Positions 15,901 to 54,269 of a stretch of DNA of 64,000 nt are shown here, one piece after another. Source of the stretch: Sphagnum magellanicum (Eukaryota > Streptophyta > Sphagnopsida > Sphagnales > Sphagnaceae). Positions within the stretch are counted from its first letter, which is position 1. Each line of letters opens with the position of its first letter. The translations under genes and the position numbers were made by a program. A model generated the notes under the pieces. That model ran no database searches, had not been told where the DNA came from, and worked only from the letters and a program-made list of their open reading frames with translations. The stretch is from contig CM038919.1 in NCBI GenBank assembly GCA_021904315.1, forward strand, positions 6,510,001 to 6,574,000, written 5' to 3'.

Positions 15901-15911
15901 GTCTTGGGCTC

Positions 15912-20260: not shown

Positions 20261-22168
20261 GTTTGTAAAAGCAAAGAAAAAAAAAAGAAATTTGAGATTT
20301 GTTGGTGGTTTCAAAGGTGCCATCACCACAAACATGGGTTTGGTCCACTTGAACAAAAAACCATAGAATGGTTTGGAAACACTAGGCAAGGGATAGAGAG
20401 GCAAATGAAAATTGATGCTAATAACTACCTTGGGGTTTGAGTTCAATCGAAACTAGTATGCATTGAAAAGCAACACACCTAAACCTTTGAACTCCAACAA
20501 CATGTCACTTCATTTCACACACATCATTTCAACTCCCTTCACTACACAAACCCTTGCAACTTTGACATTCGACAATAGAGTTTCAAACCAAAATAATTAC
20601 ACAATAAAAACACTTCAACATTGCACACAATGTCCAAAACAAAACATGCAAAAAAACACGTAGAATGTAAAGTCTTACTCTAATGTTGAGCCACAACAAG
20701 ATTACATAAAAACAAAAACAAATTGAAAATACAACAAACACCAAAATCAAAGTTGATGGAGGCAATTATGTACTTCAAGGTGGTTTATGAGACCTTAACT
20801 CCTTTGTGTGTTGCCACTTCCTAGTATTCTCCTCTTCACAATTGGAATACAAGAAAAAAATCAAAGAAAATGAAAACAAATCAACATTATGTTTTCTTAT
20901 GTACTTAAAAATTATGTTTGGACATTGTCGTTGCAACTTCCACAACTCCATGAAAGCAAGAAATCAAATAGACCTTGCACTTGATGCACACACAATTTGA
21001 TTCAACAACAATCCAACTTTCAAATTCTAAAACAATTTGCACCACAATTGCCATAATTAATGAGAACACAAGTTAATTACTATACCTTTCATGGTCATGC
21101 CATTTAGTGTTGCACTTTCATTCTAAAACAAAACATGATTATCAAAACCTTCATAATCCATTTTTCACAACTTGTGGGATTTGTTATTAAATGCCAAACA
21201 TATTAATTTCTAAACCTAAACTTTTAATGACCAAAATTTCATCCTACAATAGCTATGAACATATAAAATTGAAGTTCCATCTTGTAGGCGATTTACAAAT
21301 CTAATCTTACAATACAAGTGACGATAGCAAAACACCTTAGCTAGGTGGTGGCACGACTAAAAGTGACAAGAAGGGGGTAGGGTGGCATCCAATGGTCACT
21401 TCATTTCAATAATGATGGCGACAAATCTTGTTCATTAATCTTTTGGATAACTACAACTAGGTTGTTCATCATCAATTCCTTACAAAATTTTCAAAATTTT
21501 TCACCTTAATTCCTAAAGGGCCTTTGCAAAGGATTTTTTTTTGTCACCAATTGGCGAAATTTTTCCACAAAAAAAAACACTACTCACAACACTGGTTATA
21601 ACATGAAACCTATGTGCCTTATTGCTTAATTGCCCAAAGGTCATAACCTTGTTTCCATGTTGGTGGGAGTGCATGGGAATGGTGGAGTTTCATAACTTGT
21701 GCCTAATGAGAAGGGAGTGAATGCATGCTTGGTGCATTTAAACCACAACTATGTCCAATAACCAACTTGATTTGTTGTGTTATTGAACTTAGTCTCACCT
21801 TGCCTTAGTCACCTTTGAATTCATGTTTGATTACATTTGGTAACCCTACAATCCTTGCTAGTTGCCTAGTCCATTGAGCACTTTTAAATTTTAGGCTTTG
21901 TTATTTGAAACACCTTTTGAAACAAAATGGACAGGCTTGTGTCAGATGCAGGTCCCTGGATTTTCTCGTCGGTATGAAGACTAAAGAATTTTGCAAGTGT
22001 TTGTTAACAAGGTCAATTTAAAGAGATTGAAATATGCAATTGGAAATCATGAAGAGGTGGGAAAAAGCCAAAAAACTAAATAGAAAAATAAGGAAAAGAA
22101 AATTTAAAATGCTTTAAGTTGGAAAGGTTTCTTGTGTTACAACCTTAACTTTGGGTTTGCGATTTAGG
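20261..22168. other. AT-rich, no gene seen
   Basis: No domain, RNA gene or clear repeat recognised. Reading frames stay below 70 codons. Confidence 0.45.
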
Positions 22169-23050
22169 TAAGGACTTGTGAAGGTGCAGGCCAAGAATGA
22201 AGCCCGGGAGTCACATTTCATACTCCTGGGAATGTAAGAGAGTGTGAGGGAATGAACCCCCACACTCCCAAGTGAATTCCCACATTAGGAGTTGGAGTCC
22301 TAATGGACTCCCAAATCTTCAGAGTGCGATCGCAGGGGTCAAAACTCATTGAATTAAAAAGTTCCTTATATCATTAGAAACTCTTGGAATGTAGATGTCT
22401 AAAATGGGCTCGCATGACCCATTTGAGTAATTAAAACACAAGTTATGGCAAAAAGAAGGTCGTGAGTCAAATTGCCAATTTGACTCCTGACCACTAAAAG
22501 TCAGGAATCGCCCTGACTTTCTTTCATGAAGGTGGCGTGCCACATATCTTTGGAAAGATCTTGACGAGGGCTACAACTTTTCTTTAGACCTCATCTCCAT
22601 CGGAGGTCTATAAAAGAAGTTATGGGCCTCCAAAGTTGTGAAAGTCCCAATTTTGAAAATTTTGGGACTCCAACTTGGGAGTTGTAGGACAAAATGACAT
22701 TTGGGTGTTGGCCCCGTGACCACGCATAGAGAATACTATAAGGGGGAAGGTGGTGACTTCCCCCAAGTTCGGGCCGTGGTGAGTCTTGTGAGTCCGTGGT
22801 TGCCCTTGGTTCGTTCGTGCACCGAAAGTGCTCCAACTATGCACTAACCAACTTGTTTGGTTTGTGTAGGTCCATGTGAATAATCGAATTGCTTGTCACT
22901 TTTCCTAGTCCCCACCTCGGAACTCCAACATGCCCCTCTACCCCCAAAATGTTATGAGCCAAGGAGCGTGCCCCAACTCTATCCTTTCGTTGTTTTCACA
23001 TTTAGACTCGTAGTGGAGTCTATAAAGGAGTTTGGGGGTGCATCATCTTG
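22169..23050 (+). repeat. ~880-bp dispersed repeat, copy B
   Basis: Second copy of the unit at 15912-16810. It starts near AAGGACTTGTGAAGG and ends near GGAGTTTGGGGGTGC. The order of conserved blocks is the same as in copy A. Confidence 0.8.
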
Positions 23051-23550: not shown

Positions 23551-23559
23551 CATAAATTA
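23551..23559. repeat. MULE-1 target-site duplication, left
   Basis: The nonamer cataaatta abuts the left TIR of MULE-1. The right flank has cataaattg at 35407-35415, matching at 8 of 9 positions. Confidence 0.7.
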
Positions 23560-23596
23560 GGCTTGAATGACCCAACCCCCATGATTACACCAGTTC
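23560..23596 (+). repeat. MULE-1 left terminal inverted repeat
   Basis: Pairs with 35370-35406 in inverted orientation, 28 of 36 positions identical. CCACCTACCCTACTCCT follows inside at about 23754-23770, the same subterminal word as in the right end. Confidence 0.8.
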
Positions 23597-24169
23597 CATT
23601 TTAGATGTACTAATGCTCATCCAATTACTAAATTTAGTGCAGTCACAGAGGTTGAGTCACAATTTTTTTTCCATTTGCCTTTCAAGAGATTTGTTTTTTC
23701 ATTCGTGGACCTACCTTGCTCACCCAACTAACTTGTTCCAAAAAAAATTTCCCACCTACCCTACTCCTCTACCTTTGTTAGGGATTTTTTTTCAAAACTC
23801 TCTTTCTTTTTCTTGTCATTATCACTATTGTAATGGTGCCATTGCTTGTTGCCATCATTGATGTTCTAGAAAAGAACTAGGAATTGTTATAAAAAGACAC
23901 CAAAGCAAGTATGTCTTCTACATTTTTTTTCTACACTACTAGGTTTCTCTACAATTAGGATTTAGATTTATGAGACCTTTGTTTTGTTTGCTTTTAGAGT
24001 TCATTAGTGAGGCAAAGGAGAACTTGCTGGAGTGACCATGTTTACTAAAATGATAGTGTTTGCTGGAGCAATTATTATTAGAGCACAATACCGATCATGT
24101 TCATTAGAGTGCATGTACATTTTTTTCCTAGGTTATTTTTACTAATGGTTATTTTACTACGCTTATAGA

Positions 24170-25200
24170 AGATGACAATGAACTAGCTCCTCATCTTTTG
24201 ATTTCTTTTGTGTCCCGATCGGTGATTTCTTTTGTTTTCTTATGTTTTGTCCATTACTTGTAGACAATGATGATGAGTCGAGGGCTCATTGTCTCATCTT
24301 TATAATCAAGTATCTAGCTTCTTAGTCAATTTTTTTTCAATACTTGCAAAAGATGATGACGAGCCCACGCTTGTTGTCATCTTTTTTTTTGTTTTGTTTC
24401 TGTGCACCCAGAGAAAATGACAATGAATTGGTGTTCATCGTTGACTTTTTTTGTTTTCTTTTTGTGCACCTAGAGAAGATGATGATGAATAGGCTCATTG
24501 TCATCTTTTTTTGTTTTCTTTATGTGCACCCAAAGAAGATGACGACAAGGTGGCATTTGTCATTGTTTTTTAAATTTTCTTTCTATGCACCCAAAGAAGA
24601 CAATGACAAGTTGGCACTCATCGTTGTTTTTTTTTCTTTTGTTTCTGTCCACCTAAAGAAGACAATGACAAGTCAATGCTCATCATCATCTCTTTTTCTT
24701 TGGTTTCTGTGCACCCAAAGAAGATGACGATGAGCTAACTCTTCATCATCATCTTTTTTGTTTTGTTTTTGTGCACCCAAAAAAGATGACAATGAGCTAA
24801 CATTCATCCTTGTTTTTTTTTCTTTCATTTTTGTGTACCTAGAAAAGACGATGACGAGCCAACGCTTGTCATTGTTTTTTTTTTCTTTTGTTTCTATGCA
24901 CCCAAAGAAGATGATGACGAGTGCTAGTTCATCGTCGTCTTTTATTTTTTTGTTTCTGTGCACCTAGAAAAGATGATGATGAACCAGTTCATTGTCATCT
25001 TTTTTGTTTTGTTTTTGTGCACCTAGAAAAGATGATGACGAGCCGACAAAGTTTATCATCATCTGTGTTTTTTTGTTGTGTCGTAGAAGATGACAATGAA
25101 CTAACCAAGCTTGTCATCATCTTTTTCTTTGGTTGTGTTGAAGCAAAAGATGACAACAAGTTGGTTAGGCTTGTCATTGACTTTTTTTGTTGTTGAATGA
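24170..25200. repeat. minisatellite, ~60-63-bp unit
   Basis: The word GTGCACCCAAAGAAGATGA or a close variant recurs at about 24403, 24464, 24523, 24585, 24648, 24709, 24770, 24832, 24895, 24958 and 25018, with degraded units on both sides. The minus-strand translation is a repetitive Lys/Asp-rich chain and the plus strand a Phe/Leu/Ser-rich one. Neither is a credible protein. Confidence 0.85.
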
Positions 25201-25865
25201 CATGTGTCAAGTTAATAGTTCATATAATTTAAAAATATTTTGTAATGTAAAATAATTAAAATTAATCAATATAATTATTATAAATGATTAATTATCATAA
25301 AAATTAATTTTGATCAAATGCAGAAAATAGTTAATATAAGTAATTATTGAAGTATAATAATATAATACATATTAATTTTAAATTAATTATAATGAAAAAA
25401 TGATGTGTAAAAAATTATAATATAATATAAATTAATTTTAATAAAAAATGTATTTTAGTTATTTAAAAAAGGTTCAATGATTATTTTTTTCCTTTGAAGG
25501 TCTTTTAGGTTTTCTAAAGAAAAATTTGGAATTTTGTTTTAAGATGGTTCCTTAAAGGAAACGTGCATGAAAGGCATGAAAGGTGTAAAATACAAATGAA
25601 AAACAAGTGGTGCCAAATGAAATTTAAACAATTGTCGTATATGTAACCCCACCTTCTCAAGGTATGTTATGAAAGGTGCATTCTAAATTTGCATATGGCC
25701 ACATCAAAACCCATCTTTACTCTCCATGTAAGAGTAAGGATGGGCTTTTTTTGTTAATTTTTTTTGTTGCAATACCTAAATGTTTCTAATCAAATTTCTT
25801 TCACATAATAGAATACTACCTTGGTTTTTGGTCCAGAATACTTTCATCCTTTTTTATTTAAGGTT
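25201..25865. other. AT-rich spacer inside MULE-1
   Basis: Extremely AT-rich to about 25480, with nothing recognisable apart from AT-rich simple sequence. It precedes the accessory gene and may hold its promoter. Confidence 0.4.
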
Positions 25866-26065
25866 ATGATTTAATGCAATACCTTCATATTGTTGACATT
25901 GTGGTGGTTGGCTTAGATGTAATTTTTCATTATGTATGTTGATTTAATGCAATACCTTCATTTTTTGCCGTTGTGATGGCTAACTTAAGTGTAATTTCGC
26001 ACTATGTACGTTGCTTTAGTGCAATACCCTCATCTTGTTTCATGTGTGGTGGCTAGCCCAAATGC
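25866..26065 (+). repeat. three tandem ~80-bp units with GCAATACC motifs
   Basis: Units each contain TTTAATGCAATACCTTCAT or a variant, followed by a TGTGRTGGYTRRCTTA-like block. Motif copies are near 25874, 25947 and 26020. A fourth partial copy with ATGCAATTCCCTCAT near 26061 runs into the accessory gene. Confidence 0.75.
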
Positions 26066-27000
26066 AATTCCCTCATCAATTGTACCAAATTTTGGACCTC
26101 AAGAGGTTCTTCCTCCAATTCAAGATGAGCATGGAAATGCAATGGAGGATAATGAATGGGCTTACAAAGGTTCAAGATGGTGTTGCAAATTGGATGCATG
26201 CACTAGTTCTTATGAAGCCAAATGGTTGCTCTCTTAGCATTTGGAGTGAACACACTCCTTTCGAATACAAAGGGGGGAAATCAGGGCGTTTAAATACTCG
26301 TCTTGGGGGGCCTAGGCAACAAGATCATAGTTCTATGAATGTTCATATTTTGAACAAATTGCATGCAAGGCAAAAGCATAATGAAAAGAAGGCCCTTGAT
26401 TAAATGAAGAAGAAAGAAAAATTAGGGTGGGATGAACTTCAAGCCCAAGTGTAGCAAATGCAGTAGGTTAGGTGGCCTGTGTTGGTATGTTTAGCCTCTG
26501 AGATGTTATTGGACATCATTGGGATTTTGGCATGGGGGGTGGGATTCATCCCACAAAGTGCGTGGGTGCACCTTGAAAAGGATGAAAACCTTGTTGAGGC
26601 AATTCAAGCAAGCAAAATTGCCTATGCAAAACTTCTGAAAGTTGCATGGGGCGTTTGGCATTGGACATTACAGTCCAATAAGCGTAATTGAATCAAAGAA
26701 ATGGATGCAATATCCAAGTATCACGATTCCAAAATTATTCATGGGCGATATATTTCCATATTTATATATATATTTATTTACATTGTTTGCATCTTAACAT
26801 TGGATTTTTATTTTTATTTATTATTATTATTATTATTTTGTGTGTTAGGTTTTGAGGCACAACAAAGGAGGCTTTTGTTCTAGATGCAATTTGACTTGCG
26901 CTTGAGCATCCTCTACTATTTATTCATCATCATGTAACAAAAACTATAGAAGCTGCAACAAAGTATTGCACCAATGTGGGCACTATTTTTAGTTCATCCT
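26066..27000 (+). pseudogene. MULE-1 accessory gene, C2H2-type protein (broken)
   Basis: The translated sequence runs through NEWAYKGSRWCCKLDACTSS, a C-x4-C-x12-H-x4-H zinc-finger pattern with two stops in it. RLNTRLGGPRQQDHSSMNVH follows, then LASEMLLDIIGILAWGV, HLEKDENLVEAIQASKIAYA and KYHDSKIIHGR. An intron precedes a last exon starting near 26848 after TGTGTTAG. The same blocks in the same order are present in MULE-2 at 50415-51329. Several stops, a frameshift after the finger and loss of the GT donor after IHGR make it non-functional. I do not recognise the protein family outside this element. The finger suggests nucleic-acid binding. Confidence 0.65.
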
Positions 27001-29640
27001 CTTCGAAGGGATAATTATAAATATAACTTTAATGCACATACGCACCATTTTTGTATTGAGCCATTACAGATTAACTTAACATGATATATTTTTGTCACCA
27101 TCATTTTTGTAGTGTGGTTATTTGAACATTTTTGTATCAATTCGTTTGTTTTATTTTTGACCTTTAATTTTGGGATTTTTAGATTTTGGGAACATCTTAT
27201 GCCATGTTACACACAATACCCCCATCCACCACAAATGGATTACATTTTTACTATAAACCAAATAAGCAATACCTTCATCTAATAGGGTTAGCACATTTTG
27301 TGGCCATGCTAAAACATTTAAACAATACCTTCATTATCCTTATCATGAAATATTTGCACAAGTAACCTTAAGGAAAAAATGTAATTTAATATTCTTACAT
27401 AATTACATTGCCCATTTTCATGAAAGGACCCCTTGGTGCATAAATTGGTTTGTCTATGTGGGTATTGCAAACTTTTGATCTTCTCTTGTTTATGGTGGGT
27501 TTTCCATAAAACGTTTCAAATTGCAATACCGCATATCAACCAACTCATGTTCATGTTCCATTACCCTAATATAAACTTTTACCTAATATATGTTTCAAAT
27601 AAATAAGGAGGACCTTAGGTTTAAGTTTTATGGAAATTAAACCCACTTGTTTGTCATTAATTGTTTTAAAGTAACCTTTTTCCTAACATTTATATTATGG
27701 TTGGAGTCCCCCACCCCCAAATTAGGTCTAAAACACAAGTTGATAGTCTTTACACAATTTAGGGTTATGCAAAAATAATTTCAAAATTAGGTTTAACACT
27801 TAGTTCAAAAAAATTGTTAAATTCCACCATTAATGTTATGCAACCAATTCTTTTTGTTTATTTAATTTAGGGTCAATGTAGGTATTTTTTGTTGCATACA
27901 AAGGTTTCAGCTCAACATTTTAAGCTTCATTGTATAGGTTTGCTTAATTTTTCAAATTTAAACCTATGCATCCATTAGATTGTAATGTCTACATGATGAG
28001 GGTTAAAGTTTTCAATTTGTAATACCATACCCTATCACCCTATGTCAAATCCCAAATGCATGCCCCAACCCCAAATTACAATACCTAGGTAAATCTATGT
28101 TATGCAACCCCCCTTGATTTAATAATGCAAAAAAAATCCCTTCATCATCTAAGGTTATGTAAGTACATCTTGTTACCAAATGCAATACTTGCATTTAGTG
28201 TATAAAAACAATAGGAAGTATCCAAAAGATACTTATTAAAAAAATTGTAACCAATTATCAACATAGTTATGACATTCTTGGTGCGAGAATGTTATGGAAG
28301 CCCAAAGAAGCAAGAATTTTAAAGAATTTTATGGATCAACCAGTGTAATTTGGTAAACATTCGCGGGTAAAGAATGTTATGACAAGGTGCTAAATGAAGA
28401 ATTTTAAAGAATTTTAATGTGCAAAATGAAGAATGTCATCACTAGGATTATCAATATCTTCATCTTTAGGTGTAAGCATTGACTATGGGCATGTCCCAAT
28501 TTTTCCAAACCCTAATTTGCAATACCTACTTTGTTTATAGTGAATTTTAGGGTGATCATTAAGGCAATTTTGCCTTTATTATTGTAATGTAATACTACTA
28601 GTCTACCATAATAAGCTTATCATTATACCTACATAAATCTATATTGTATACCATCACCAAAATTCCCCTTTTGGTTAATAAATATTTATTATATAGATAT
28701 TACAAAAACTTAGTCCCTCACCATCTAGGGTTACTTAGGGGGATCTTGTCCACCAAATGCAATACCTACATTTAATGGACCAAATGCAATATGAATTATT
28801 AAAATGATATTTATAACTAAAGCAAATGATCATTCTGATAAAAAAAGGTAAGACAATACCCGCATTAAGTGGTCAAATCCCCTTTCGGAAGGAGTAGGGA
28901 ATTTGTAATACCTTCATCTAATGTAATTTATACTCATGAAAGATATGAAATTATATGCAATACATGTATTAGTGATTGTTACCCTTTAACTATGATATAT
29001 TGTAAACCTTGCAATACCTGCATGTAAGACCAATTAAATGTCATAAGAAACAAGATGGGTAAGCATTACTTGCATATTGACCTTGTGATTTTTATACAAT
29101 TGACTTGCAATACCCACCTTTATATGACATTTGAATGAGATATTCTTGTTTGGGAATTTTAGAAGATATGTGTTATATAACCTTAACAATGTAACTTTAA
29201 TTTTCAAACCCTATATGTTCATTAATACAAAAATTAATGCATTAACACGTAAATAATTTATTCTTTGACATAATTGTAATATGATACACATTTTAATAAT
29301 GGAAAATTAAATTGGGGGATAAATACAAATAAATTTGTGTTGTTTTCTTTCATTCATGAGCCCTCTTCTTACAGATATTTCCATGTTCTAACATCATTTC
29401 ATTCCGATCCTTCATCCGGTGCACTGAATTACCAAGTCCATCATTGATGCAATGAAATACCATGTTAAAATGCATGACTTCATTCACCTTGGAAAGGCAA
29501 ATACCTCATACATCTGTTGCAATATCATGCAACAATGATGTGGTGTGGTCTATGAATTGAACCCCACCTTCTTTGACTTCGTTTATGATCTTTTGCATTA
29601 TGTCACCCATTTGAGTAAGTGTTTTTTCCATGGGGGTGGA
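27001..29640 (+). repeat. GCAATACC-motif-rich intergenic region of MULE-1
   Basis: Non-coding and AT-rich, between the two convergent genes. The motif GCAATACC or a one-base variant, often followed by (T/C)NCAT, occurs near 27270, 27325, 27525, 28022, 28080, 28183, 28521, 28760, 28853, 28903, 28958, 29011 and 29110. All are in the same orientation. Spacing is irregular, so this is not simple tandem duplication. Confidence 0.7.
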
Positions 29641-29904
29641 TGAACTTGAAGATTAATTACGATCTTTCTTTTTTTTCACATTGGGGGAAGTATCATTTGG
29701 TGTTATAAACCCACACATATTAACAACCCATGGTTCTTCATAACGATCTTCATTGACCTCTTCATTATCATATTCATTGTCATAAATGTGCAAATAGGTA
29801 GTGTTCGCAAACATGGTGGCAAAACCTCCATGATCAGATCCATACCATGTCCCATAATATTGAGTGATATTTTATTTAGTGAGATAGGTGCATGTAAGAA
29901 GAAT

Positions 29905-29958
29905 GGCAACTTGATGTTTGCACAAGTTTCCATGCATCACCCATTCACATGTGCAACA
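29905..29958 (-). other. SWIM-type zinc finger coding segment
   Basis: Encodes CTCEWVMHGNLCKHQVA on the minus strand. The Cys-x-Cys ... Cys-x-His pattern is typical of MULE and FAR1/FHY3 proteins. Confidence 0.8.
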
Positions 29959-30359
29959 AGCATATTTGGTGAAAGGAAGTGGGACCTTGTATGTCATATT
30001 TAAATGTTGTTGGTTTCATACCATCCATGCATGGCCAGTTTCATTCGAATCATCTATCCCATGGATGACATTGGTGTGAAGGATCAATGTGGCCTTTTCA
30101 ACACTCGATTTCACAGTGTGTTCCACAACCTTATTTTTTATGAACTTGCGTTTCTTCATTTCAGCCATGTGCATGTAATTGTCTTATAACCGTTGTTGTG
30201 ACTCTCCACATTAATTAATCAATTCATTGACTTCGAAGCCTTTTTGTTTCCAAAAAAAACCAATGTTTCAATGCCCCATGGTAATATTCAATTAATGTTT
30301 GTGTGACTTGGTTTGAATGTGGCATTTGTTGAAGCCCCACCATTCACAAATCTACAACA

Positions 30360-31270
30360 AAATATAATGTGCATCCATAAATTATCGTGTAGGCATTGCC
30401 TTACCTTCTACCATATATAGTGTGGATTAGGGTCATAATGTGGATATTGTATTTTGCCCCACATACATTGTGCATCTTTAAATTATCATGTAGGTACTGC
30501 ATTTAAGGCTCCCACATATAGTGTGGGTTAAGGTCATGATGTGGGTATTGTATTTTGCCCCCACATATATTGTGCATCTTTAAATTATCATGTAGGTATT
30601 GCATTTAGGGCTCCCACATATAGTGTGGATTAAGGTCATGATGTGGGTATTGTATTTTGCCCCCACATACATTGTGCATCTTTAAATTCATGTAGGTATT
30701 ACATTTAGTGCTCCCAAATATAATGTGGATTAAGGTCATAATGTGGGTATTGTATTTTTCCTGCACATACATTGTGCATTTTTAATCATGTAGGTATTGC
30801 ATTTAAAGCTCCCACATATAGTGTGGATTAGGGTCATGATGTGGGTATTGTATTTTGCCCCCACATACATTGTGCATATTTAAATTATCATGTAGGTATT
30901 ACATTTAGTGCTCCCACATATAGTGTGAATTAGGGTCATGATGCAGATATTGTATTTTGCCCCACATACATTATGCATCTTTAAATTATCATGTAGGTAT
31001 TACATTTAGTGCTCCCAAATATAGTGTGGATTAGGGTCATAATGTGGGTATTACATTTCGCCCCCACATATAGTGTGGATATTTAAATTGTCATGTAGGT
31101 ATACATTTAGTGCTCCCACATATAGTGTGGATTAGGGTCATAATGTGGGTATTGCACTTCGGCCCCACATATAATCTGCATATTTAAATTGTCATGTAGG
31201 TATACATTTAATGCTCGCACATATAGTGTGGATTGGGGTCATAATGTGAGTATTGCATTTTGTCCCCATA
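30360..31270 (+). repeat. ~100-bp minisatellite, about nine copies
   Basis: Each unit contains CCCACATATAGTGTGGATTA, GGTCATGATGTGGGTATTG and ATTATCATGTAGGTATTGCA. Units recur every ~100 bp from about 30421. Each holds two GGTATTG words, the reverse of the GCAATACC motif. It interrupts the transposase gene. Confidence 0.85.
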
Positions 31271-33339
31271 TGGGATTACTAAATCCATCATTGGTTTTCT
31301 ACCTTAATTCAAGGAGTGAATATTTGGGGATATGCACAACATGGTGGAACAACAATAATGGATTGAGAGTTTTTTCATGTATCAACTTGGAAATAATAAG
31401 TTTAAAAGTACCGAGTCCATGAATCACTATGCAAATGTTGGGTGAAGCTTTCAATCATTTTATTTCTTCCACGAATCATGAAGGCTTCAATGTTTTCATT
31501 TGGTTCAATGGGCATGTACATGACGATGTGAAGGTCGTCCAATATTGCACGTCGCACCCCATTGTCTTTGATTTTTTTATCAAACGTAAACATCAAGCTT
31601 TTAAGACATGCCATGCGCAAAGGTAAATGGGCATTTGATCTTCGCCTCGCACAATCCTAACCATGCATAAAATACCAATTTATTATCATTTCAACTAATT
31701 ACAATATTTATAATGGAGAATGTGGGATGAAAATTTGAAATTGTTTCATGTACATAAAAATTCAAAAAGGTAGAATGAGAATAAATCTCACTACAATGTT
31801 CGTAACTCTTGTGGAACATCATCAACGATGAAACATGAAGGTTTCCATTTAGGGTTATTCCTTAATAGTTTTGTTTTCAAAGGAATTAGCCATTCCACCG
31901 AATCATTGCATGTTTGGCAACTTGTAATGATCCATGCAACCGACACCTTGGTGTGTTGTGCATTAAACACCATCAATGTGAACAAGTGAAATTCTAGATC
32001 ATTGGTGTTGAAGGTGGCATCCACTGAGATTGCCCCATTATCACATAATGAAACCATGGCTTACAATTGAGATGGGGTTTGTATCTTATTATGAATGGGA
32101 CATGAATCCCATTATTTTCACTTACATCTTGAAAATAAAACACATCATTTGGGTAATTAAATGCCCATGTGCAAAGGGAAATGGCTGGATTTTTGTGTAA
32201 ATGCCAATTCCTTCTTTTGTGTTTATGACCCAAGTAAACAATGTTTTATTACCTAATGAAATCATCCTTTGTCATCACTTCTCTTGCATTGATTTTAGCC
32301 CACCATATTGCCTTATGTTTGTCATATATTTGTTTAATGGTGTAGCCTAAACCCAATTGAGTCCAAATGTGGTCTTTGAAGGTTTATGACATTTATGGGG
32401 AAAAAAAGATGGTCGCACAATGGAATCAAGGTCATGTTTGCCATGTGCAGGCTCACCATTGGCTCATGTATGAGGTCGATGGTAGAAGATTATCTCTACC
32501 ACTTTGGGTCATGTATACAATTGCTTAATCGAGAATTGAAGTAAACAACCCCATTTAATGGATTAATGGTGATTTGAGTCTCCACAATTGTCTTCGATTC
32601 CATACCCACATGTATACCTACAAAATGTGCAATCAATTTAAGACTTAAAGTTTGTTACACTATGAAATTAAAAAACAAGTTCCATATAACAAAAATGAAC
32701 AATAAAACATCATACCAAATGTGGTCGAGGTGGTTTTGGATTCTTGGCATTTTTACATTTTCTTGCGGGGGTATTCACTTATAAATGTTCCACCCCATCC
32801 GGGAATCTTCATGGTTTTGTTCACCATTTAGAAATTCCGAGACTTGTGCATGGGGGATGTATGCACATTCAACGTCGATTATATGTGCCCTTCCATGTTG
32901 AACATCTTTTTTTCACACCAAGTCCATGTTCTTAAAGGGTGATTTCCTTAGGATTTGGATCTCAATAAATTGAGATTTTGAAACACAACCAATGTTTGAA
33001 ACTATGCCTTGGGTTGATTGTATAAGAAAAGACGATAAATTGATGTTAATGTCCAAAACTTTATACTTGTAATATGTTGAATTACATGTTAATTGTCATA
33101 TTCAATACTAATGCAAATGTACATGTTCTAAGTACTTGATTTATATCCTTCATCCTAACCCCATAAAATCATGCACATAATACCTTAAATGCTAAGTATA
33201 GAAAACATAAGATATGGTATATGGTCATAATTGTAAATTTTAAATTACAATACTCACAAGTCTATTTTAAATCCATATTATCTATGGATAATCTAAATGT
33301 AATACCCACATGATAGTTAACAAATTGCACTATTTATGG

Positions 33340-33560
33340 CAGAAGGAAATATAATACCTTCATGACAATTTAAAGATGCACACTATATGTGGGTATCAAA
33401 ATGCAATACCCACATTATGACCTTAATCCACACTATATGTGGGAGCCCTAAATGCAATACCTACATGACAATTTAAATATGCACATTACATGTGAATGGA
33501 AAAATGAAATATTAGCATTATGACCTTAAATTCACATTATCTATGGGAGGCCAAAATGTT
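33340..33560 (-). repeat. inverted copies of the ~100-bp minisatellite unit
   Basis: About two units of the 30360-31270 array appear here in reverse orientation. They include GACCTTAATCCACACTATAT and AATGCAATACCTACATGACA. Together the two blocks bracket the 5' part of the transposase gene. Confidence 0.8.
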
Positions 33561-34619
33561 AAATCCATATATCAACCATTGAACTTTTAGTTGAATTTGA
33601 TGACCGTATTAAAACCATCCAAGGAGATTAATTTCCTTAAATTAAGAACAAAATAATAATAAAAAATGATTAAGAAAAAATATCATATCATTGATGTTAA
33701 AGGATGATATCACATTTAAAGGAGTTGTATCTTGATTTGAAAACACAACCTAAATAAATCAACACACATTTCATTAAATTTTAAACTTTAAACCCTAAAT
33801 AATCCTAGTGGTAAATGATTTCAACCTAATGATTATACAAACAAAACTACAAATGGAATACAAAAAAGATTTATAACAATTATCTTTTGAATTTAAAAGT
33901 TAATCAACTAAAAATTATAATGAATGGAAGCATTAGCCTTAGAGTTTAAAACTAATTACCCCAAAATATTTATATATAAACCTAAAAAAAATTTAATGGT
34001 AAATTTCATAAAAATTAATGACTATATAAACATATACAAATGCCATACAAAATAATCTTTTAGGAGTGAGTGATGAATTAAAATCGAAACACAATGAATA
34101 GAAGAAATTAAATGAATGAAATAAGAGTTTATTTTCTTACTTTTAATATGGTCACTTCAACTTGAAGGCCGAACTTGAGACCTTTTTCATTCACTTTCAA
34201 AAGAAATAAAAAGAATCTTGTTGCAAGTATTTTTATGTGAAGATTTGGCCAAATTTCCCCCCCAAAATCCAGCCTAGGATTGATTTTGATTAGTATTAAA
34301 AATTGTGCAAATATTCTTAAATGTTTGATATCTTTTTAACTCTAAATTTATCAAGCCTATTCCTTAATTAAATTAAGTAAATCTTGCATTAAATGGTCCA
34401 AAGTGGAGGTAGAGGACCATTGCCAAAAAAATTCTTGCAATTGCAATACCCACATTTTACATTACAATTTTTGCAATTGAAGTCCATAATTTACAAGTGT
34501 ATAGGTGGGTATGATGGGCCAATATGATGGCATGTGGGTAGGTAAGCTTTGCCAATAAATAGATGTTTTGTTAATAATTAAAGTGGCATTACTAAAAAAT
34601 GTATCTATTATTTTAGTTA
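33561..34619. other. AT-rich subterminal region of MULE-1
   Basis: Contains a segment near 34140-34300 with AATTTCCCCCCCAAAATCCAG. It resembles segments in MULE-2 at about 52086-52240, 53330-53480 and 53512-53560 (AATTTTCCCCCCAAATTTAG). It could include the promoter and first exon of the transposase gene, read on the minus strand. One GCAATACCCACATTT is at 34443. Confidence 0.5.
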
Positions 34620-35135
34620 ATTTTTGAAGTAGGAATTAGGTAAAAGTTTAACTAGTAAAATATATAGATTTTGCCAAGGAATAGAAATTTAGCCAAGAAA
34701 AAATATAGGTTTAGCTAAAAGAAATAAGTTTAACTAAAAAGATATATAAGTTTTGTCAAGGGATACAAGTTTAGCCAAAAAGAAATATAAGTTTAAGCAA
34801 GAAGAAATATAGGTTTAGCCAAGAGATGTAAGTTTAGCCAAGAAGAAATATAGGTTTTGCCAAGAGAGAAAAATTTAACTAATAAGATATATACATTTAG
34901 CCAAGAGATAGAAGTTTAACCAAGAAATATAAGTTTAACCAAGAAAAAATATAGGTTTAGCCAAGAGATAGAAGTTTAACCAAGAAATATAAGTTAACCA
35001 AGAATAAATATAGGTTTAACCAAAAAGAAATATAGGTTTAGCCAAAAAGAAATAGAAGTTAGCCAATAAGATATATAGCTTTAGTCAAGAAATAGAAGTT
35101 TAGCCAAGAGGAAATAAGAGTTTTGCCAAGGTAAG
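34620..35135 (+). repeat. subterminal TTTAGCCAAGA array of MULE-1
   Basis: Well over a dozen short units of the form GTTTAGCCAAGA followed by AGAAATATAG or GATAGAA repeat irregularly, with TTTAACCAAGA variants. Confidence 0.85.
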
Positions 35136-35369
35136 TAAGAGATTACTTGTTAGTTCATAGGCAAGGTTAAGACTTAGGCCAGTAGGGTAGCAGGTGGGTG
35201 GGTAATATAGAGGTCAGGGCTGAGAAAAAATTGGCAGCGAAACAAAAAAAAAATGGTCAAAGGTCAATAGCCAAAAAGGATTGACTGTGATAAAATGTTG
35301 GTTAACGCAAGGTAAAGAAGCGAATGAAAAAGAGGCGAATCATCCAGCCCATCCTACGGACAGAATGGT

Positions 35370-35406
35370 CAACTGGTGCAGTCATGGGGGCTGGTTCACT
35401 CTGGTC
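35370..35406 (-). repeat. MULE-1 right terminal inverted repeat
   Basis: Inverted partner of 23560-23596. Ends in TTCACTCTGGTC, directly followed by the nonamer cataaattg. Confidence 0.8.
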
Positions 35407-35415
35407 CATAAATTG
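35407..35415. repeat. MULE-1 target-site duplication, right
   Basis: cataaattg, 8 of 9 positions identical to the left flank at 23551-23559. Confidence 0.7.
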
Positions 35416-35449
35416 CACAAAATTTTGTCAAAAGTGGAGTGAAAGTGTT

Positions 35450-35690
35450 CTGCAGTGAACCAGCACCCACCAGCACACCATCCACTGAATGTGCGTTATT
35501 ACTCAGTTGTGGCTGAACTTCAACTGAGTTAATATTTGACTTCACCTTGGTAACCAAATTTGTAGGACATGGGTCTCATATATTGAGCTAACCACCATGG
35601 TTAGCTAGGGAACTTGAACTCAACAGAAAACTGTTTCCTGACCACTTACCATTCATCCTTCATGGTGCACTGGTGGGTGTGGCCGCGAAC
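35450..35690. mobile_element. small MULE-TIR-like inverted-repeat element
   Basis: The left side contains CACCCACCAGCACACCAT (35464-35481). The right side in reverse reads CACCCACCAGTGCACCAT, followed on both sides by a GAATG word. The core resembles the TIR word CAGCCACCAATGCACCAGTT of MULE-2. About 240 bp long, no coding capacity, 43 bp outside the right end of MULE-1. Exact ends and target duplication are not resolved. Confidence 0.5.
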
Positions 35691-47896: not shown

Positions 47897-47905
47897 GAGG
47901 CATTG
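47897..47905. repeat. MULE-2 target-site duplication, left
   Basis: gaggcattg, identical to the nonamer at 54261-54269. Confidence 0.9.
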
Positions 47906-47942
47906 GGCTGGAGTGAATTAGCAGCCACCAATGCACCAGTTG
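47906..47942 (+). repeat. MULE-2 left terminal inverted repeat
   Basis: 34 of 37 positions match the inverted right end (54224-54260). Similarity fades after CACCAGTTG, although both sides soon reach CCTACC-type sequence. Confidence 0.9.
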
Positions 47943-48039
47943 CGGATGAGCCCGTTGAGGCCGTTTTCCGGATGAACAAAAATCCCATCCTCCCTGCCCG
48001 GATTTTTTTTTTTTTTCCACCTCTTCTCTACCCCAAAAT

Positions 48040-48140
48040 TTCCCCCCCTCCTACCTACCACCTCCCTCCCCCCTCCTACCTCCCCCCTCCTACCTACCAT
48101 CTACCTCCCCCCTCCTACCTACCACCTACCAACCCCTCCC
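48040..48140 (+). repeat. subterminal CCTACC array, left
   Basis: Units of CCCCTCCTACCTACCACCTA and variants repeat. The right subterminal region read in reverse has the related CACCACCTACCCTACTAACC, so both ends of the element carry the same kind of array in inverted orientation. Confidence 0.8.
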
Positions 48141-48429
48141 CCCTCACTCCATCGCCAGAGCTCCAGAGATGTTGAGCGGGAGTGAGCTTGGAGCTTGGAG
48201 CCGGCTTGGAGCGGGAGCGAGCTTGGAGCTTGGAGCGGCTGGAGCCGGACCCACGCAGGACCCAGCTAAGCATTTTTTTTTTGTGTTTATTTTGTTTGTT
48301 TGTTTGTGGAGTTGCGCTGCACAAGATACGCAGCGTTGCAGTGCAGCTCCACAAACAACATTTGCTTCTTCTTCTTTTTTGTGCAACGCAAGAAGTTCCA
48401 AAGAATAAGAGCTCGGAGCTCGGAGCTGC

Positions 48430-48960
48430 TTCTTTTTGTTTCCCTGTTTTTCCTTCTCTTCCTCCTTGCTCCTCTTCATTTTTTTTAGCTTCCAATTTTT
48501 CTATTCTCTTCCTCCTTGCTCCTCTGTGTTTTTTTTTCTTCCTGTTTTTTTCTCCTCTTCCTCCTTCTCTTCGGTTTTTCTTCTTCTCTTCCTCCTCCTT
48601 CTCTTCGTTTTTTTTCCTTCCTGTTTTTTTCTTCTCTTCCTCCTTCTCTTCCATTTTTTCTTTCTTCCTATTTTTTTCTTCTCTTCCTCCTTCTTCTCTT
48701 CATTTTTTTTAACTTCCAATTTTTCTATTCTCTTCCTCCTTGCTCCTCTGTGCTTTTTTTTTCTTCCTGTTTTTTTTCCTCTTCCTCCTTCTTCTCTTCG
48801 GTTTTTTTTCTTCCTGTTTTTTTCTTCTCTTCCTCCTCCTTCTCTTCGTTTTTTTTCCTTCCTGTTTTTTTCTTCTCTTCCTCCTTCTTCTCTTCGTTTT
48901 TTTTCTTCCTATTTTTTTCCTTCTCTTCCTCCTTGCTCCTCTTCCTCTTCCTTTTATTTC
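48430..48960 (+). repeat. pyrimidine-rich minisatellite
   Basis: Repeats of TCTTCTCTTCCTCCTTCT alternating with CTTCCTGTTTTTTTC, with about 50-bp periodicity. Long Phe/Ser/Leu-rich frames through it on the plus strand (up to 278 codons) and Lys/Glu-rich ones on the minus strand are by-products of the composition. Confidence 0.85.
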
Positions 48961-48984
48961 TTCTTCCTGTTCTTCTCTTCTCTT

Positions 48985-49417
48985 CCACGAAGAGCTCGGA
49001 GTTCAGAGCTGTGCTGCCGCGCAGCTCCACGAAGAGCTCGAAGCTGCGCTACAGCGCAGCTCCACGAAGAGCTCGAAGCTGCGCTACAGCGCAGCTCCAC
49101 GAAGAGCTCGAAGCTGCGCTGCAGCGCAGCTCCACGAAGAGCTCGAAGCTCGGAGCAGCTCCACGAAGAGCTTGGAGCTGCGCAGCTCCATGAACAGCTC
49201 GGCACTACAGCGCTCGGAGCTGCGCTGAGCTCGGCGCTAAGCTCAGAGTCGCGTTGCAGCGCAGCTCCATGAACAGCTTGGAGGCGCGCTGTAACGCAGC
49301 TCCACGAACAGCTCAGAGCCGCGCTGCAGTGCAGCTCCATGAAGAGCTTGGAGCCACGTTGCAGCGCAGCTCCACGAAGAAGGCGACGGCAACTGCCCGT
49401 CGCCTTCTTCTTCGTGG
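48985..49417 (+). repeat. 33-bp GC-rich minisatellite ending in a hairpin
   Basis: The unit GCAGCTCCACGAAGAGCTCG plus AAGCTGCGCTACA repeats with increasing divergence. At 49372-49417 the unit runs into a hairpin: CCACGAAGAAGGCGACGG on one side and CCGTCGCCTTCTTCTTCGTGG on the other, with a short loop. Related words also occur at 48170-48240. Base composition is far more GC-rich than the surroundings. Confidence 0.8.
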
Positions 49418-49635
49418 GGCTGCGTAGCAGCACTTTGTTTTTTTTCCTTGCTGCGCTGCGCTGCAACATTGCAGCACTTTTTTTTCTTTTTTCTTGTTGT
49501 TGCGCTACAAAGCTGCTGTCACCTTCCTATATGGTGGGGATTTTTTTTTTTGCTTTGTTGTTGCTTATGCTTTAGTTCAATTGAATTAACAATTGGTAAT
49601 AACTGGTGGTTTTTGGTTTAGGGTTGGAGGTTGTA

Positions 49636-51329
49636 ATGGGTAAGAGAAGAAGACTAAGGAAAAGCGATGGTGGGCTGTTGGAAATCAATAGGCAAGATTT
49701 AGTTGCATCAGATGAGGCTATTTTGCCAAATGTTGTTGTTTCTGATAAGGTGATTCTTCTTCCATATATTGCTGGAGGAGATGAGTCAAGTGCTGAACCA
49801 CATGTTGCTACATTAGATGCGGCAATTGTTCAGCAAAGTACTGTTGCATCAAATGCGAGAGGTGCCCAGGAAAATATTGTTACATGAGATGCGGGAGGTG
49901 CCCAGGAAAATATTGTTACATCAGATGCGGGAGGTGCCCAGGAAAATATTGTTACATCAGATGCGGGAGATGCCCAGGAAAATATTGTTACATTAGATGC
50001 GGGAGGTGCCCAGGAAAATGTTGTTGCATCAGATGCAGCAACTACTCAGCTTAATGATGCAGCAACTGATGACCAAAGTGTTGTTGCATCAGATCAGGAA
50101 ATTGATGAGCATAATTGTGCTCTATCCTAATTGAAACAGAAGGATAGCATTGGTATAGATTGTTTTAGAATTCGTGGACATTAGAAGATAGGACATTAGA
50201 TTAATTATAAATTAATAAAATTGTACAAATTTCTTGAAATTTAATTGCATCCGCACCTTCCATTTGTTGGAAAATGCGGGAATTTTTTTATCAAATTTTT
50301 TTAATTGCAATACTTTAGAACAGTTCATGTTTATAAAAGTAGTATGTAATTTTGTGATTTGATGTTTTGCAATACCTGCATTTTGTTTATTGAACTTTCA
50401 TTTTTTGGGTTTAGGTCCGGAACTAGAAACTAAGCAAGCTTTTCAACCACTTGCACTTATTTGTCCACCTAATTTGGCTCGGAAGGATAAGGAATGGACA
50501 AAGGTTGGGTTCAAATGGAAGTGCAAAGTCCACAATTGCAGTGTCGCATATTGTGCGAAATGGCTATTAACTAAACATTTGAAGGAGGTGCACGGCTTGG
50601 TGGCAAAAAAGTCCAAACCTAGGAGGCCTTCAATTGCTGCAGGAGGTCCTTGGCATCAAGACCATGCCAAGATGAACGCTCGCATTTTGGGAAATGCGAT
50701 GGCTGTGCAAAGGCGAAATGATCAGAAAGTTCTTAGTTGTGTTCGTGCCAAAGCAGAACGCGAGTGGAATCACTTGGTAACTCTTGCTAAATAGTGTCCA
50801 CCCTTCCCAAAACCACCTTTGGTCAGATTTGCTTCAGAGCAATTGTTGAAGGTGTTGGGCTTGAATGCCTGGGGCGTGGGCAGTGTGGCGCAATTGTACG
50901 AATGGAAAAGGATGATGACTTACAGGGGATGATCCGATCCACTCGTTGTGCATATGCATGACAATTAAAGACGGCATGGGATGTGAAGAATTGGGAGCGA
51001 GAGTCCAGCAAAACAAGTCGGACAAAACAGTTGTCGGATGTTTTAGATTTTCATGAATCTACAATGATTCATGGAAGGTAAGAAAAAATACTAAGCAATG
51101 TTTATTGCTTTTTTATTGTATTTGATCCAAGGTGTGTTACGGTTTAATTTTGTGATTTTTGGGTGTTTGTAGGGTTCAGGACCAAACAAAGGCGCAGTTT
51201 GTTGCAAATGCAGTTCAGGTTGAGATGCAACGCCGCCATTTTTACACTGCTCATCATGCAGCAAAGGCTGCAAATGCAGCAGCTGCATATCGAGCTAAAC
51301 ACAGGATTGTAGATACTGATATGGGTTAG
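49636..51329 (+). pseudogene. MULE-2 accessory gene, C2H2-type protein (broken)
   Basis: First block 49636-50130: a basic MGKRRRLRKSDGG start followed by a 12-residue repeat region. Whether it is the same gene's first exon is uncertain. Second block 50415-51077, after an AG acceptor: GPELETKQAFQPLALICPPN, then the finger WKCKVHNCSVAYCAKWLL with the histidines of KHLKEVH (C-x4-C-x12-H-x4-H). RPSIAAGGPWHQDHAKMNAR, FASEQLLKVLGLNAWGV, RMEKDDDLQGMIRSTRCAYA and DFHESTMIHGR follow. Third block 51173-51329, after GTAAGA...AG: VQDQTKAQFVANAVQVEMQR to a TAG stop. Stops at 49885 and 50792 and a frameshift near 50.87 kb break it. All blocks after the first recur in MULE-1. Family unknown, nucleic-acid binding likely. 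Confidence 0.7.
49846..50025 (+). repeat. 36-bp coding minisatellite (12-residue repeat)
   Basis: Five exact-length 36-bp units encode variants of ASDAGGAQENIV. In the second unit the Ser codon TCA reads TGA (49885-49887), the only stop in the array. Further degenerate DAA/DQSVVASD units follow to 50130. Confidence 0.85.
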
Positions 51330-51744
51330 GGTTTCATTTTACATAATTAGTAAGGTTTTCTAGCCCTTTTATTTTTTGGACTACCCAATTTTGAACTTTG
51401 ATCCTTTGATATGTTATAGAGATTCAATGTTTTTTTTTCATTGGGTTCTCTAGTAATTTTCCATGCACCCGTTTTTGTACATTTTTTATTAAAACAATAG
51501 TATCTTCTACTCACACTTGTTTGATGTGTATTTGGTTAATCGTATATGTCTTCTTTGTCATAATTTTGTTAGTACCTGAGATGTAAAAATCAAACCAAAA
51601 ATTAAAATTAACATTATACAATACTTACATCTAAATTAATAGGACTCACATCACCTGAAGACTTTTAAAATAATTCACACATTTTAAACATATAATACCC
51701 ACATCATTTTCTATTATGAACTCCATAAGACCATTTTCTAATAT

Positions 51745-52035
51745 GCAATACCTGCATATAAGTCCAAAAATAGCCACATGCATTTTGCATTAATTGCAAT
51801 ACCCGCATATAAGTCCCACAATAGGCGCTGGCCTTTTACATTCCTTGCAATACCCGCATATGAGTCCCATAATAGCTGTTGGCATTTTGCATTCCTTGCA
51901 ATACCCACATATAAGGCACAAATAATCGTTGACATTCTCCATTCGTTGCAATACCCACATATAGTTCCCCATAATAGTTGTTGGTTTTTTTGGCATCTCT
52001 TGCAATACCCGCATATAGGTCCCATAATAGTTGCT
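51745..52035 (+). repeat. GCAATACC tandem array of MULE-2, ~51-bp period
   Basis: Six copies of GCAATACC(T/C)(G/A)CATATA begin at about 51745, 51796, 51847, 51898, 51948 and 52002. Spacers contain CCCATAATAGNYGYTGGC. Further single motifs lie at 50312, 50371, 51621 and 51697, and inverted ones at 52729, 52810, 52928, 53706, 53787 and 53868. Confidence 0.85.
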
Positions 52036-52085
52036 GGTTTATTTTCGATCTCAACAAATTTTGTATTGCATTCAGGGTTGGGTTT

Positions 52086-53560
52086 TCACATAAGGTTTGT
52101 TTATTACCTTTGTGTGATAACTCCAACCTAATTTTCTCAATCTTTTTGAAGAAAATATAGAATGAGATTGTATTGTTTCACATATGTCTAAACCTAAAAA
52201 TTTCCCCCCAATTTAATATAAAATATTTCTGATAATTAATTTATTATCAAAAAAATTCGTCATATAATTAAATAATTAATAGACCATTATTTCAGATAAT
52301 TTAGATGAATAATTATCATGAATTAGATAATCATTTATTTATTTGGAATAATCAACTAATCATTTGGCTTAACTTTATTTACTTGGATAATGAAAAGTTG
52401 GATCCAAAAATCAGATTGATTAATTTGATATTTGATTAATTAACTTAAGTATATTTTTGTTTTAATAAGTTATTAAAATCATTATTTAAGATAATTATTC
52501 CAAATTATAGATTGTAAGTTCAGTTTTTTCATGAAAAGTTCCTACACCAAGATAAGCTTGATCACAATTGTCATTGTATTATTTGATCCACAAACAATAT
52601 AACCTCTTTTCAAATTCATGAAACGAAGTAAGAATCATGGAACTCCTAATCAACAACCCTAACCTCTATACACACATTTGTGTGCATATTAATTTGAAAT
52701 GAACTAATTATTTTTGTGTGCCCCAAAATGTAGGTATTGCATTTAGGGTAGGATTTTCATATAAAGAAACTTAAACCCTACATGCATCCTTTCGGAGTGG
52801 CCTAAATTGCAAGTATTGCATTTAGGGTTGGGTTATTTCAAAGTGATTTTGCATGTGCATATTGTGTTTAGGGCTAGGTCTTCACTTAAAGATATCCAAA
52901 GCATTTAGATGGATTTTTTTACATTTGGGTATTGCATCTAGGCTTGTTTTTCATTTCAACTTGCAATACCCAAACTTATACTTACCTTTACCAACTAGAA
53001 TTTTGGGGTTTCGTTGTAATACCTACACCCATACTTACTTTTACCAACTGGAATTTTGGGGCATAATTTCAATACTTGCACTTGTACTTACTTTTACCAA
53101 ACCCTAACAAAAAAAAATCTTAGTGATATATGCCTTAAACCTAAAAAATTATACAAGTTATACAAATCATATAATGCAAAATAAACTAATTTAAAAGAAC
53201 ATAGGAAAAAATTTAAAAACCAAAATTCAAAGGTTTTAAACTATAAATATTTATTAAGTGAAAGAAAATACGTTAATCTTTAAAAATAATCAAATAAATT
53301 TCATATAAAACTAAAAGAAAAGATATGTGTTTTATCTTTGTGTGATCCTTCCAACCTAATTTTTCCACTCTTTTTGAAGAAGATATAAAATGCAATTGTA
53401 TTACTTCACATATGTGTAAACCCTAAAATTTTCCCCCCAAATTTAGCCTACTCTAGATTAATTACTATACATTTGTGAAAAACTTATTAATTAATTTGTG
53501 TCTCAACCCTAAACCTAAAAATTTCCCCCCAAATTTAGCTTACTTTAAATTAATTACTAT
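52086..53560 (+). repeat. duplicated subterminal segments of MULE-2
   Basis: A ~150-bp segment with TCTTTTTGAAGAA, TTCACATATGT and TTTCCCCCCAA occurs at about 52086-52240 and 53330-53480. A shorter copy is at 53512-53560. A related segment lies near 34140-34300 in MULE-1. AT-rich sequence fills the gaps and no gene is seen. Confidence 0.65.
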
Positions 53561-53699
53561 ACATTTATGAAAAGCTTATCAATTAATTTATGTGTCTCAA
53601 CCCTAAACCTAATGGTTAAGTTAGTAGGGTATGTAATTAATAGAGTAGCTAGGTTAGTAGGGTAGGTGGTTAGTACAGTAGCTTGGTTAGCGGTGTGAC

Positions 53700-53890
53700 C
53701 CAAAATGCAAGTATTGCATTTAGGGTATGATCTTCGTATAAAGATGTTTAAACCCCACATGCGTATTTTCGAAATGGCCCAAAATGCAGGTATTGCATTT
53801 AGGGTAGGATCTTTGTATAAAGAAAACTTGAACCCCACATGCGTACTTTCAAAATCACCCAAAATGCAGGTATTACATTTAGGGTAAGGT
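53700..53890 (+). repeat. three ~80-bp units with inverted GCAATACC motif
   Basis: Units contain CAAAATGCAGGTATTGCATT followed by TAGGGTA and CCCCACATGCGTA. Motifs are at about 53706, 53787 and 53868. Related single units occur near 52729 and 52810. Confidence 0.75.
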
Positions 53891-53899
53891 TTTTAGGGT

Positions 53900-54065
53900 A
53901 GGGTATGTAATTAATAGGGTAGTTAAGTTAGTAGGGTAGGTGGTGAGTACAGTAGCTAGGTTAGTAGGGTAGGTGATGAGTACAATAGCTAGGTTAATAG
54001 GGTAGGTGGTAAGTATAGTAGCTAGGTTAGTAGGGTAGGTGGTGAGTGCAGTAGCTAGGTAGAAA
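53900..54065 (+). repeat. subterminal ~33-bp array of MULE-2, right
   Basis: GTAGCTAGGTTAGTAGGGTA and GGTGGTGAGTA repeat with anchor words TAGCTAGG at about 53953, 53986, 54018 and 54052. A shorter stretch of the same type lies at 53610-53690. Confidence 0.85.
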
Positions 54066-54223
54066 AGTGAACAGGGTAGCTATGTGTGAGCTCAGGTCCA
54101 GGGAAAAACGAGCAGGAACCAAAAAAAAAAAGTACAATGGTCAGCAGCAAAAAGAAATGGACTGTCATGAACCCCATCCGGTGCTGAATGAAAAAACGCA
54201 ACCCATTCAGTGGACAGAACGGC

Positions 54224-54260
54224 CAACTGGTGCATTGGTGGCTGTTAATTCACTCTGGCC
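54224..54260 (-). repeat. MULE-2 right terminal inverted repeat
   Basis: Inverted partner of 47906-47942, ending TTCACTCTGGCC. Confidence 0.9.
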
Positions 54261-54269
54261 GAGGCATTG
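54261..54269. repeat. MULE-2 target-site duplication, right
   Basis: gaggcattg, identical to 47897-47905. Confidence 0.9.

Follow-up and report, generated by a model that had tools for sequence, protein, structure and literature searches.

Two Mutator-like elements (MULEs) lie in a 64,000-nt window of the Sphagnum magellanicum contig CM038919.1 (the window being the whole stretch analysed, numbered from its first letter), and their relatives were sought in 439 Mb of genome sequence in 31 contigs. The first element, MULE-1, carries five blocks of an accessory gene with a C2H2-type zinc finger on the plus strand and pieces of a transposase gene on the minus strand, the two genes converging. The second, MULE-2, carries the same accessory gene, and no transposase piece was matched in it. 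An earlier note on this DNA had proposed this two-gene layout for MULE-1 and had given the element the extent 25866..32945; the layout is real, and the element itself reaches further on both sides (Table 1). The accessory gene is a real, inherited and selected second gene of a MULE family.

MULE-1 is bounded by a 9-bp target duplication, within the 8-11 bp expected of a MULE and read by eye (23551-23559 CATAAATTA and 35407-35415 CATAAATTG, 8/9 the same), and its ends pair as an inverted match (23565-23600 with 35401-35364, 82% over 38 columns, E = 0.004). The duplication around MULE-2, GAGGCATTG, occupies 47897-47905 and 54261-54269 (read by eye), and the ends of this element are 1 and 2 bases off the 31-bp terminal inverted repeat (TIR) of a subfamily-B element described below, element B, to which its longer pieces are 77-95% identical. 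The aligned accessory pieces of MULE-1 and MULE-2 are 35-44% identical. Judged by sequence similarity, MULE-2 derives from the B type and not from MULE-1; the earlier note was right that the two share a gene, which sits, however, in elements of different subfamilies. This likeness is not due to chance, because tblastn within the window gives E = 7e-10 for the finger and E = 3e-14 for the middle block, and the genome search with the MULE-1 accessory peptide gives E = 4.3e-31 for the weakest of the best 150 of 927 candidates scored. Both window copies of the accessory gene are pseudogenes. In MULE-1, exon 2 has four stops in its middle block, two in its finger block and a frame change between the blocks, and no exon 1 was recognised. 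A close relative of MULE-1 on the same chromosome, 0.54 Mb away (L043), is 89-92% identical; it may be a segmental duplicate of the MULE-1 region, since the left flanking DNA is common to both.

Table 1. Features of the two MULE copies, in window positions
Feature	Position	Strand	Basis or remark
MULE-1, decayed subfamily-A element, 11.8 kb	23560..35406	.	inverted match and flanks
MULE-1 left TIR	23560..23600	+	inverted match
MULE-1 scattered exact GCAATACC cores in non-coding DNA (17; 13 plus, 4 minus)	25769..34450	.	
MULE-1 accessory exon 2: C2H2 finger, GGPRQQDH, AWGVG, HDSKIIHGR	26088..26763	+	sequence match
MULE-1 accessory last exon, one stop	26856..27011	+	homologue open in B copies L041, L044, L067, L068
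MULE-1 transposase, C-terminal part, weak SWIM match	29349..30370	-	Pfam; 64% DNA identity to element B
Array of about nine 101-bp units with TGCAATACC-type motifs, between transposase pieces	30368..31271	.	
MULE-1 transposase, catalytic and N-terminal parts, decayed	31372..32945	-	sequence match
MULE-1 right TIR	35364..35406	-	inverted match
MULE-2, transposase-less subfamily-B derivative, 6.4 kb	47906..54260	.	TIRs, duplication, similarity to element B
MULE-2 accessory exon 1, approximate ends	49561..50120	+	MGKRRRLRK start
MULE-2 accessory exon 2, approximate start; two stops and frame change	50411..51078	+	
MULE-2 accessory last exon, open	51183..51314	+	
Array of 51-bp units shortly after the MULE-2 accessory gene, with six TGCAATACC cores at intervals of 50-54 bp	51744..52030	+	

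Element B (L039 joined with L046, C2:9486492-9498534) is a younger relative of 12.0 kb with TIRs identical at 31/31 bp and a target duplication, TGGAAGTGG, read by eye like that of another copy, L069 (CATTGCTGCT). Its accessory gene lies on the plus strand as an N-terminal, a central (4224-4895) and a last exon (4997-5134, L039 coordinates), with the transposase on the minus strand; the last exon has one stop in element B and is open in four other copies (Table 1). Copies of the 12.0-kb element are 96-99% identical over most of the stretches compared, and the family has probably moved recently, since a copy on another chromosome, L044, is 99.2% identical to element B over 5.7 kb. The transposase of element B matches the MULE domain PF10551 (E = 6.8e-8, 33.3 bits, cut-off 27.6), and the SWIM finger scores below its cut-off of 19.6 both in the window (16 bits, E = 0.009) and in element B (9.8 bits). 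In MULE-1 an array of 101-bp units separates the transposase pieces, whereas about 60 bp lie between them at the corresponding site in element B. Among the accessory matches listed, subfamily A and its kin stand at 46-100% identity to the MULE-1 peptide and a large subfamily-B group, many of its members with long open frames, at 38-42%. L048 and L049 form a third group, which shares 52-61% identity with an A copy and 39-41% with B.

The B-type protein starts with MGKRRRLRK and continues with tandem peptide repeats, of which L044, L039, L068 and L041 have 1, 2, 3 and 4 units, respectively, and MULE-2 about six (12 residues each, a 36-bp DNA unit, one repeat with a stop). There follow a C-x4-C-x12-H-x4-H finger, KPGRPST, GGPRHQDH, AWGVG and MIHGR. 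Over 52 aligned copies, 19 B rows and 33 A rows, the zinc ligands are largely kept: the first cysteine in 19/19 (B) and 28/33 (A), the second in 15/19 and 29/33, the first histidine in 19/19 and 29/33, and the second in 18/19 and 30/33. Scans of Pfam (33 members), NCBIfam and the PDB sequences returned no credible match to the family; none of the 15 weak Pfam matches of the 33 members was to a finger family, the best (E 0.0077, one member) being to an unrelated family. With the finger stretch alone, TFIIIA (E 0.63) and GLI (E 0.68) came up among the PDB sequences behind other chance-level matches. No description of the protein, or of the motif TGCAATACCYRCAT introduced below, was found in the parts of the open-licence PMC literature consulted. 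The protein is without a credible counterpart in these sources, in keeping with the earlier note's suggestion that it may be an undescribed MULE helper.

The association of the two genes was measured between the best 150 of 929 transposase candidates and 211 distinct accessory matches merged from two lists (150 of 927 and 150 of 1137). An accessory gene lies within 10 kb of 56 of the 150 transposases listed; 54/56 of these pairs converge, spaced by a median of 5.9 kb. A control with randomly shifted positions (200 trials) gave on average 1.4 pairs, 0.33 of them convergent, and never more than 6 pairs. Together with the TIRs, the target duplications and the selection reported below, these pairs bear out the earlier idea that the MULE has two genes, of which the C2H2-type accessory gene converges with the transposase gene. 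Neither many single-copy host loci lacking these TIRs nor homologues of known unrelated function were seen among the matches listed, the TIRs being unchecked match by match; likewise, no host parent gene, the subject of a Pack-MULE test, was recognised among these matches, which were not checked singly.

Accessory genes also occur apart from a transposase. Of the accessory matches listed at at least 95% identity, 12/40 have a listed transposase within 12 kb, and two copies, L067 and L068, have a deletion in common that joins position 7867 of element B to 12354, so that the transposase is lost and the accessory gene is left in place. Retention without the transposase, from which the earlier note argued for a role in transposition, therefore recurs in the family, but that argument is weak on its own because deletion derivatives can keep the gene passively. 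The idea that retention in MULE-2 proves function was set aside for this reason, since same-breakpoint derivatives such as L067 and L068 would keep the gene in any case. Better evidence for a function of the accessory gene comes from the gradient in the ratio of nonsynonymous to synonymous divergence (dN/dS).

This ratio was computed by the Nei-Gojobori method on exon 2, leaving out codons that contain stops and using only pairs that share at least 100 codons. The three pairs of lowest divergence gave 0.90 (B) and 0.63-1.13 (A), near the value of neutral decay after insertion. The six most diverged B pairs, all of them against the older branch L054, gave 0.28-0.30 at dS 0.46-0.48, and five of the six most diverged A-type pairs gave 0.15-0.19 (dS 2.1-3.0), the sixth being saturated; the medians were 0.57 in B (171 pairs) and 0.42 in A (595 pairs). 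The accessory protein is kept in old lineages while single copies decay, and passive cargo is rejected on these ratios. Between A and B, synonymous sites are saturated (the proportion of differing sites, p, is 0.77-0.78 for synonymous, pS, and 0.39 for nonsynonymous sites, pN). The accessory proteins of A and B are about 40% identical and the transposases of nine A-type pairs 60-69% identical to that of B; the accessory protein thus evolves faster than the transposase.

The elements are dense in a short motif. The 9-mer TGCAATACC is the most frequent in MULE-1 (16 against 0.17 expected) and the fourth in element B (23 against 0.19), and it is prominent in the other four stretches examined. Its core, GCAATACC, occurs 17, 25 and 11 times in MULE-1, element B and MULE-2, respectively, compared with shuffle means of 0.35, 0.57 and 0.18. 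Three further stretches of the window, 39.5 kb in all, contain it once, where 1.0 is expected. Extended by its context, the motif becomes a 14-mer, TGCAATACCYRCAT, common to both subfamilies, whose R position is A in 31/45 sites of subfamily A and G in 38/56 of subfamily B. The 14-mer is found 3960 times in the genome (1968 + 1992), compared with 2 for the pattern read backwards. Among the first 100 places listed on C1, 63 are no more than 12 kb away from an accessory or transposase match on the lists, a region that makes up 1.5% of the stretch, and five of six further motif places match element DNA (one of them, L078, only via a subterminal repeat). The exact 9-mer is present in 26 of 30 A-type accessory loci, a set to which MULE-1 belongs (some 3.5 kb per locus; 57 sites, 1.3 expected), and in 15 of another 24 loci that are shorter, at about 1 kb.

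Two properties of the motif go beyond its density. None of the 42 cores of MULE-1 and element B falls in an assigned exon (Fisher p=2e-6), the exon limits having been set by hand from alignments. In addition, the core diverges less than its flanks in young copies and not in old ones: over six B copies its divergence is 8/846, compared with 148/5649 in its 40-bp flanks (p=0.0016), and between MULE-2 and B it is 4/108 compared with 96/722 (p=0.0024).

The explanation that we favour, at a little less than even confidence, is that the accessory protein helps its element as a nuclear factor that binds DNA sequence-specifically at TGCAATACCYRCAT and keeps the element open, expressed and mobile. The short basic start, the tandem-repeat tail, the C2H2 finger with the adjoining AT-hook-like GRP stretch and the conserved core would together make up a DNA-binding layout. 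Such a protein would bind the TGCAATACCYRCAT sites throughout the introns and the other non-coding DNA of the element, binding would keep this DNA open and expressed, and open DNA would stay movable by the transposase. The mode of action would be that of VANC in Arabidopsis VANDAL elements or of TnpA in maize Spm, a CACTA element, without detectable relation to either; we propose it because a fast-evolving, repeat-bearing finger protein combined with a dense non-coding motif repeats the VANC/VANDAL pattern. The earlier suggestion that the protein binds the element's repeated motifs has in this way gained a strong candidate site, the binding itself being what we infer.

Several observations weigh against this explanation. 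Nothing singles out the accessory protein, over the transposase or a host factor, as the reader of the motif. A single C2H2 finger usually recognises 3-4 bp, so that a site of 9-14 bp would need a dimer or further contacts. The AT-hook likeness of the GRP stretch is weak in A, where the arginine is kept in 11/33 rows (17/19 in B). An AlphaFold model of exon 2 (33 rows) is poor, with a mean predicted local distance difference test score (pLDDT) of 46.5, and its order of strand-strand-helix followed by long helices is merely suggestive. The motif of A copies is not less diverged than its surroundings (94/986 vs 787/7684, p=0.54), and the MULE-2 core is not clearly less diverged than all non-coding DNA (p=0.077). 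Among the matches listed, 94/150 transposases have no accessory gene within 10 kb, which may reflect decay, deletion or merely the extent of the lists and is no evidence of real absence. Finally, the sixth of the further motif places, L079 (C1:8369500-8372500), has TGCAATACC-type motifs at intervals in DNA that shows no detectable relation to A or B elements.

Two other readings are each clearly less probable than the binding helper. The accessory protein may be a MURB-like subunit of the transposition complex that aids integration or excision, in which case the motif has another reader. The two-gene plan and the opposite transcription are those of MuDR, whose MURB is reportedly crucial to insertion (PMC9168764; this and the papers below are cited from extracts), and the purifying selection on the accessory gene speaks for this reading as well. 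However, a role at the ends needs no motif across non-coding DNA, the motif lies outside the TIR stretches inspected, and the transposase-less L067 and L068 keep both motif and gene. To about the same degree, it is conceivable that the transposase or a host factor reads the motif, e.g., as a transcription or silencing signal, and that the accessory protein has its place of action elsewhere. The data do not separate the motif from the accessory gene, and the transposase gene, too, has motif sites on its sides and between its pieces. Direct evidence for such a reading is lacking; the motif is common to A and B despite the divergence of both their transposases and their accessory proteins, which does not decide the matter.

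It is improbable that the motif arrays arose neutrally by tandem duplication and are uninformative on binding, although several arrays are present (units of 51, 72 and 101 bp), parts of them are about 60-70% related between A and B, and the A copies show no lower motif divergence. Many cores are single, in differing flanks and on both strands; none is in an assigned exon, and those of B copies are less diverged than their flanks. Very improbable is a host gene captured once and carried as a passenger. MULEs often capture gene fragments (PMC2528002, PMC6446971), and many listed copies of the accessory gene are decayed, but dN/dS is 0.15-0.30 between old lineages compared with 0.6-1.1 in the least diverged copies, convergent pairing holds in both subfamilies, and the matches listed yielded no host parent.

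DUF1985 is the domain linked to VANC, and it was absent from the Pfam scans of the accessory proteins, which carry a C2H2 finger. The likeness to VANC and VANDAL otherwise extends to an extra MULE gene, to a short motif that is dense, and often tandemly repeated, in non-coding sequence, introns included, and to a protein that combines conserved domains with variable regions bearing tandem peptide repeats (PMC5735166). VANDAL TIRs are described as lacking or as short and degenerate, some relatives having TIRs (PMC6446971), whereas the present family has TIRs. Binding and demethylation have been demonstrated, according to the extracts, for VANC only. The motifs differ as well, being YAGTATTAY for VANC21 and TGCAATACCYRCAT here.

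In maize MuDR, too, the two genes converge. Like the present family, MuDR combines two oppositely transcribed genes, mudrA and mudrB, in one TIR-bounded element; however, the extract of PMC9168764 mentions no dense internal motif arrays for it, and the accessory protein is likened to MURB by layout only. ORFR of Abermu is likewise an extra open reading frame (ORF) opposite the transposase; it evolves faster than the transposase, has Ka/Ks below 1 and has no similarity to MURB. ORFR differs in that it shows no similarity between distant plants and is missing from a rice element thought to be recently active, and its authors regard it as possibly unimportant for transposition; no finger or motif array is mentioned for it in the same extract, and the comparison is by description only (PMC9168764). 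TnpA of Spm is an element-encoded activator of its own element whose action correlates with DNA demethylation, and TnpA and MURA of MuDR are further element proteins linked to methylation loss of their own elements (PMC10398659). Yeast Mutyl mutB and aphid Spectre (PMC6446971) belong to fungal and animal elements and are likewise compared by description only. The extra genes known from MULEs in the extracts are thus MURB, VANB/VANC, ULP1 genes, Abermu ORFR and Mutyl mutB, and a known role is rare among them (MURB and VANC). The ULP1 protease domain, a feature of KI-MULEs, had no match in the Pfam scans of the extra gene described here.

A large, recently mobile family with a conserved zinc-finger protein as candidate helper and a sharp candidate motif offers a directly testable protein-site pair. 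We consider it possible, though distinctly less so than the binding helper itself, that the family represents a second, independently evolved plant anti-silencing system, with an unrelated zinc-finger protein, its own 14-base motif arrays and derivatives that keep the anti-silencing gene. If so, systems that counter silencing would have evolved more than once, the anti-silencing gene and not the transposase would be what non-autonomous derivatives retain, and motif arrays would offer a general means of recognising anti-silencing systems in other genomes.

Further repeats accompany the motif and the elements. L079 is possibly a further family sharing the motif; in L080, 3.4 kb adjoining it on one side, neither an accessory nor a transposase gene was found. 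A 155-bp palindrome in the window (42949-43103), perhaps a fold-back miniature inverted-repeat transposable element, is about 74% related to L079 DNA, which is itself related to L075 DNA, both of these being near motif clusters on C1. Inside the left end of MULE-1 lies a tandem array of 62-bp units (24382-25035), and the left end of element B has a GC-rich tandem array of its own (L039 2411-3490). Adjoining MULE-1, a small unit at 35446-35690 with MULE-TIR-like ends (GTGAACCAGCACCCACCAG.../...CACTGGTGGGTGTGG) is possibly a small derivative of the same MULE family; related pieces, with 82-93% identity, occur at C2 beyond the borders of the B element. Elsewhere in the window, 1.6 kb at 62349-63967 match their own reverse complement at 95%, as a large palindrome or fold-back element would, and a direct repeat of 0.9 kb (15894-16794 and 22141-23041) is 78% identical.

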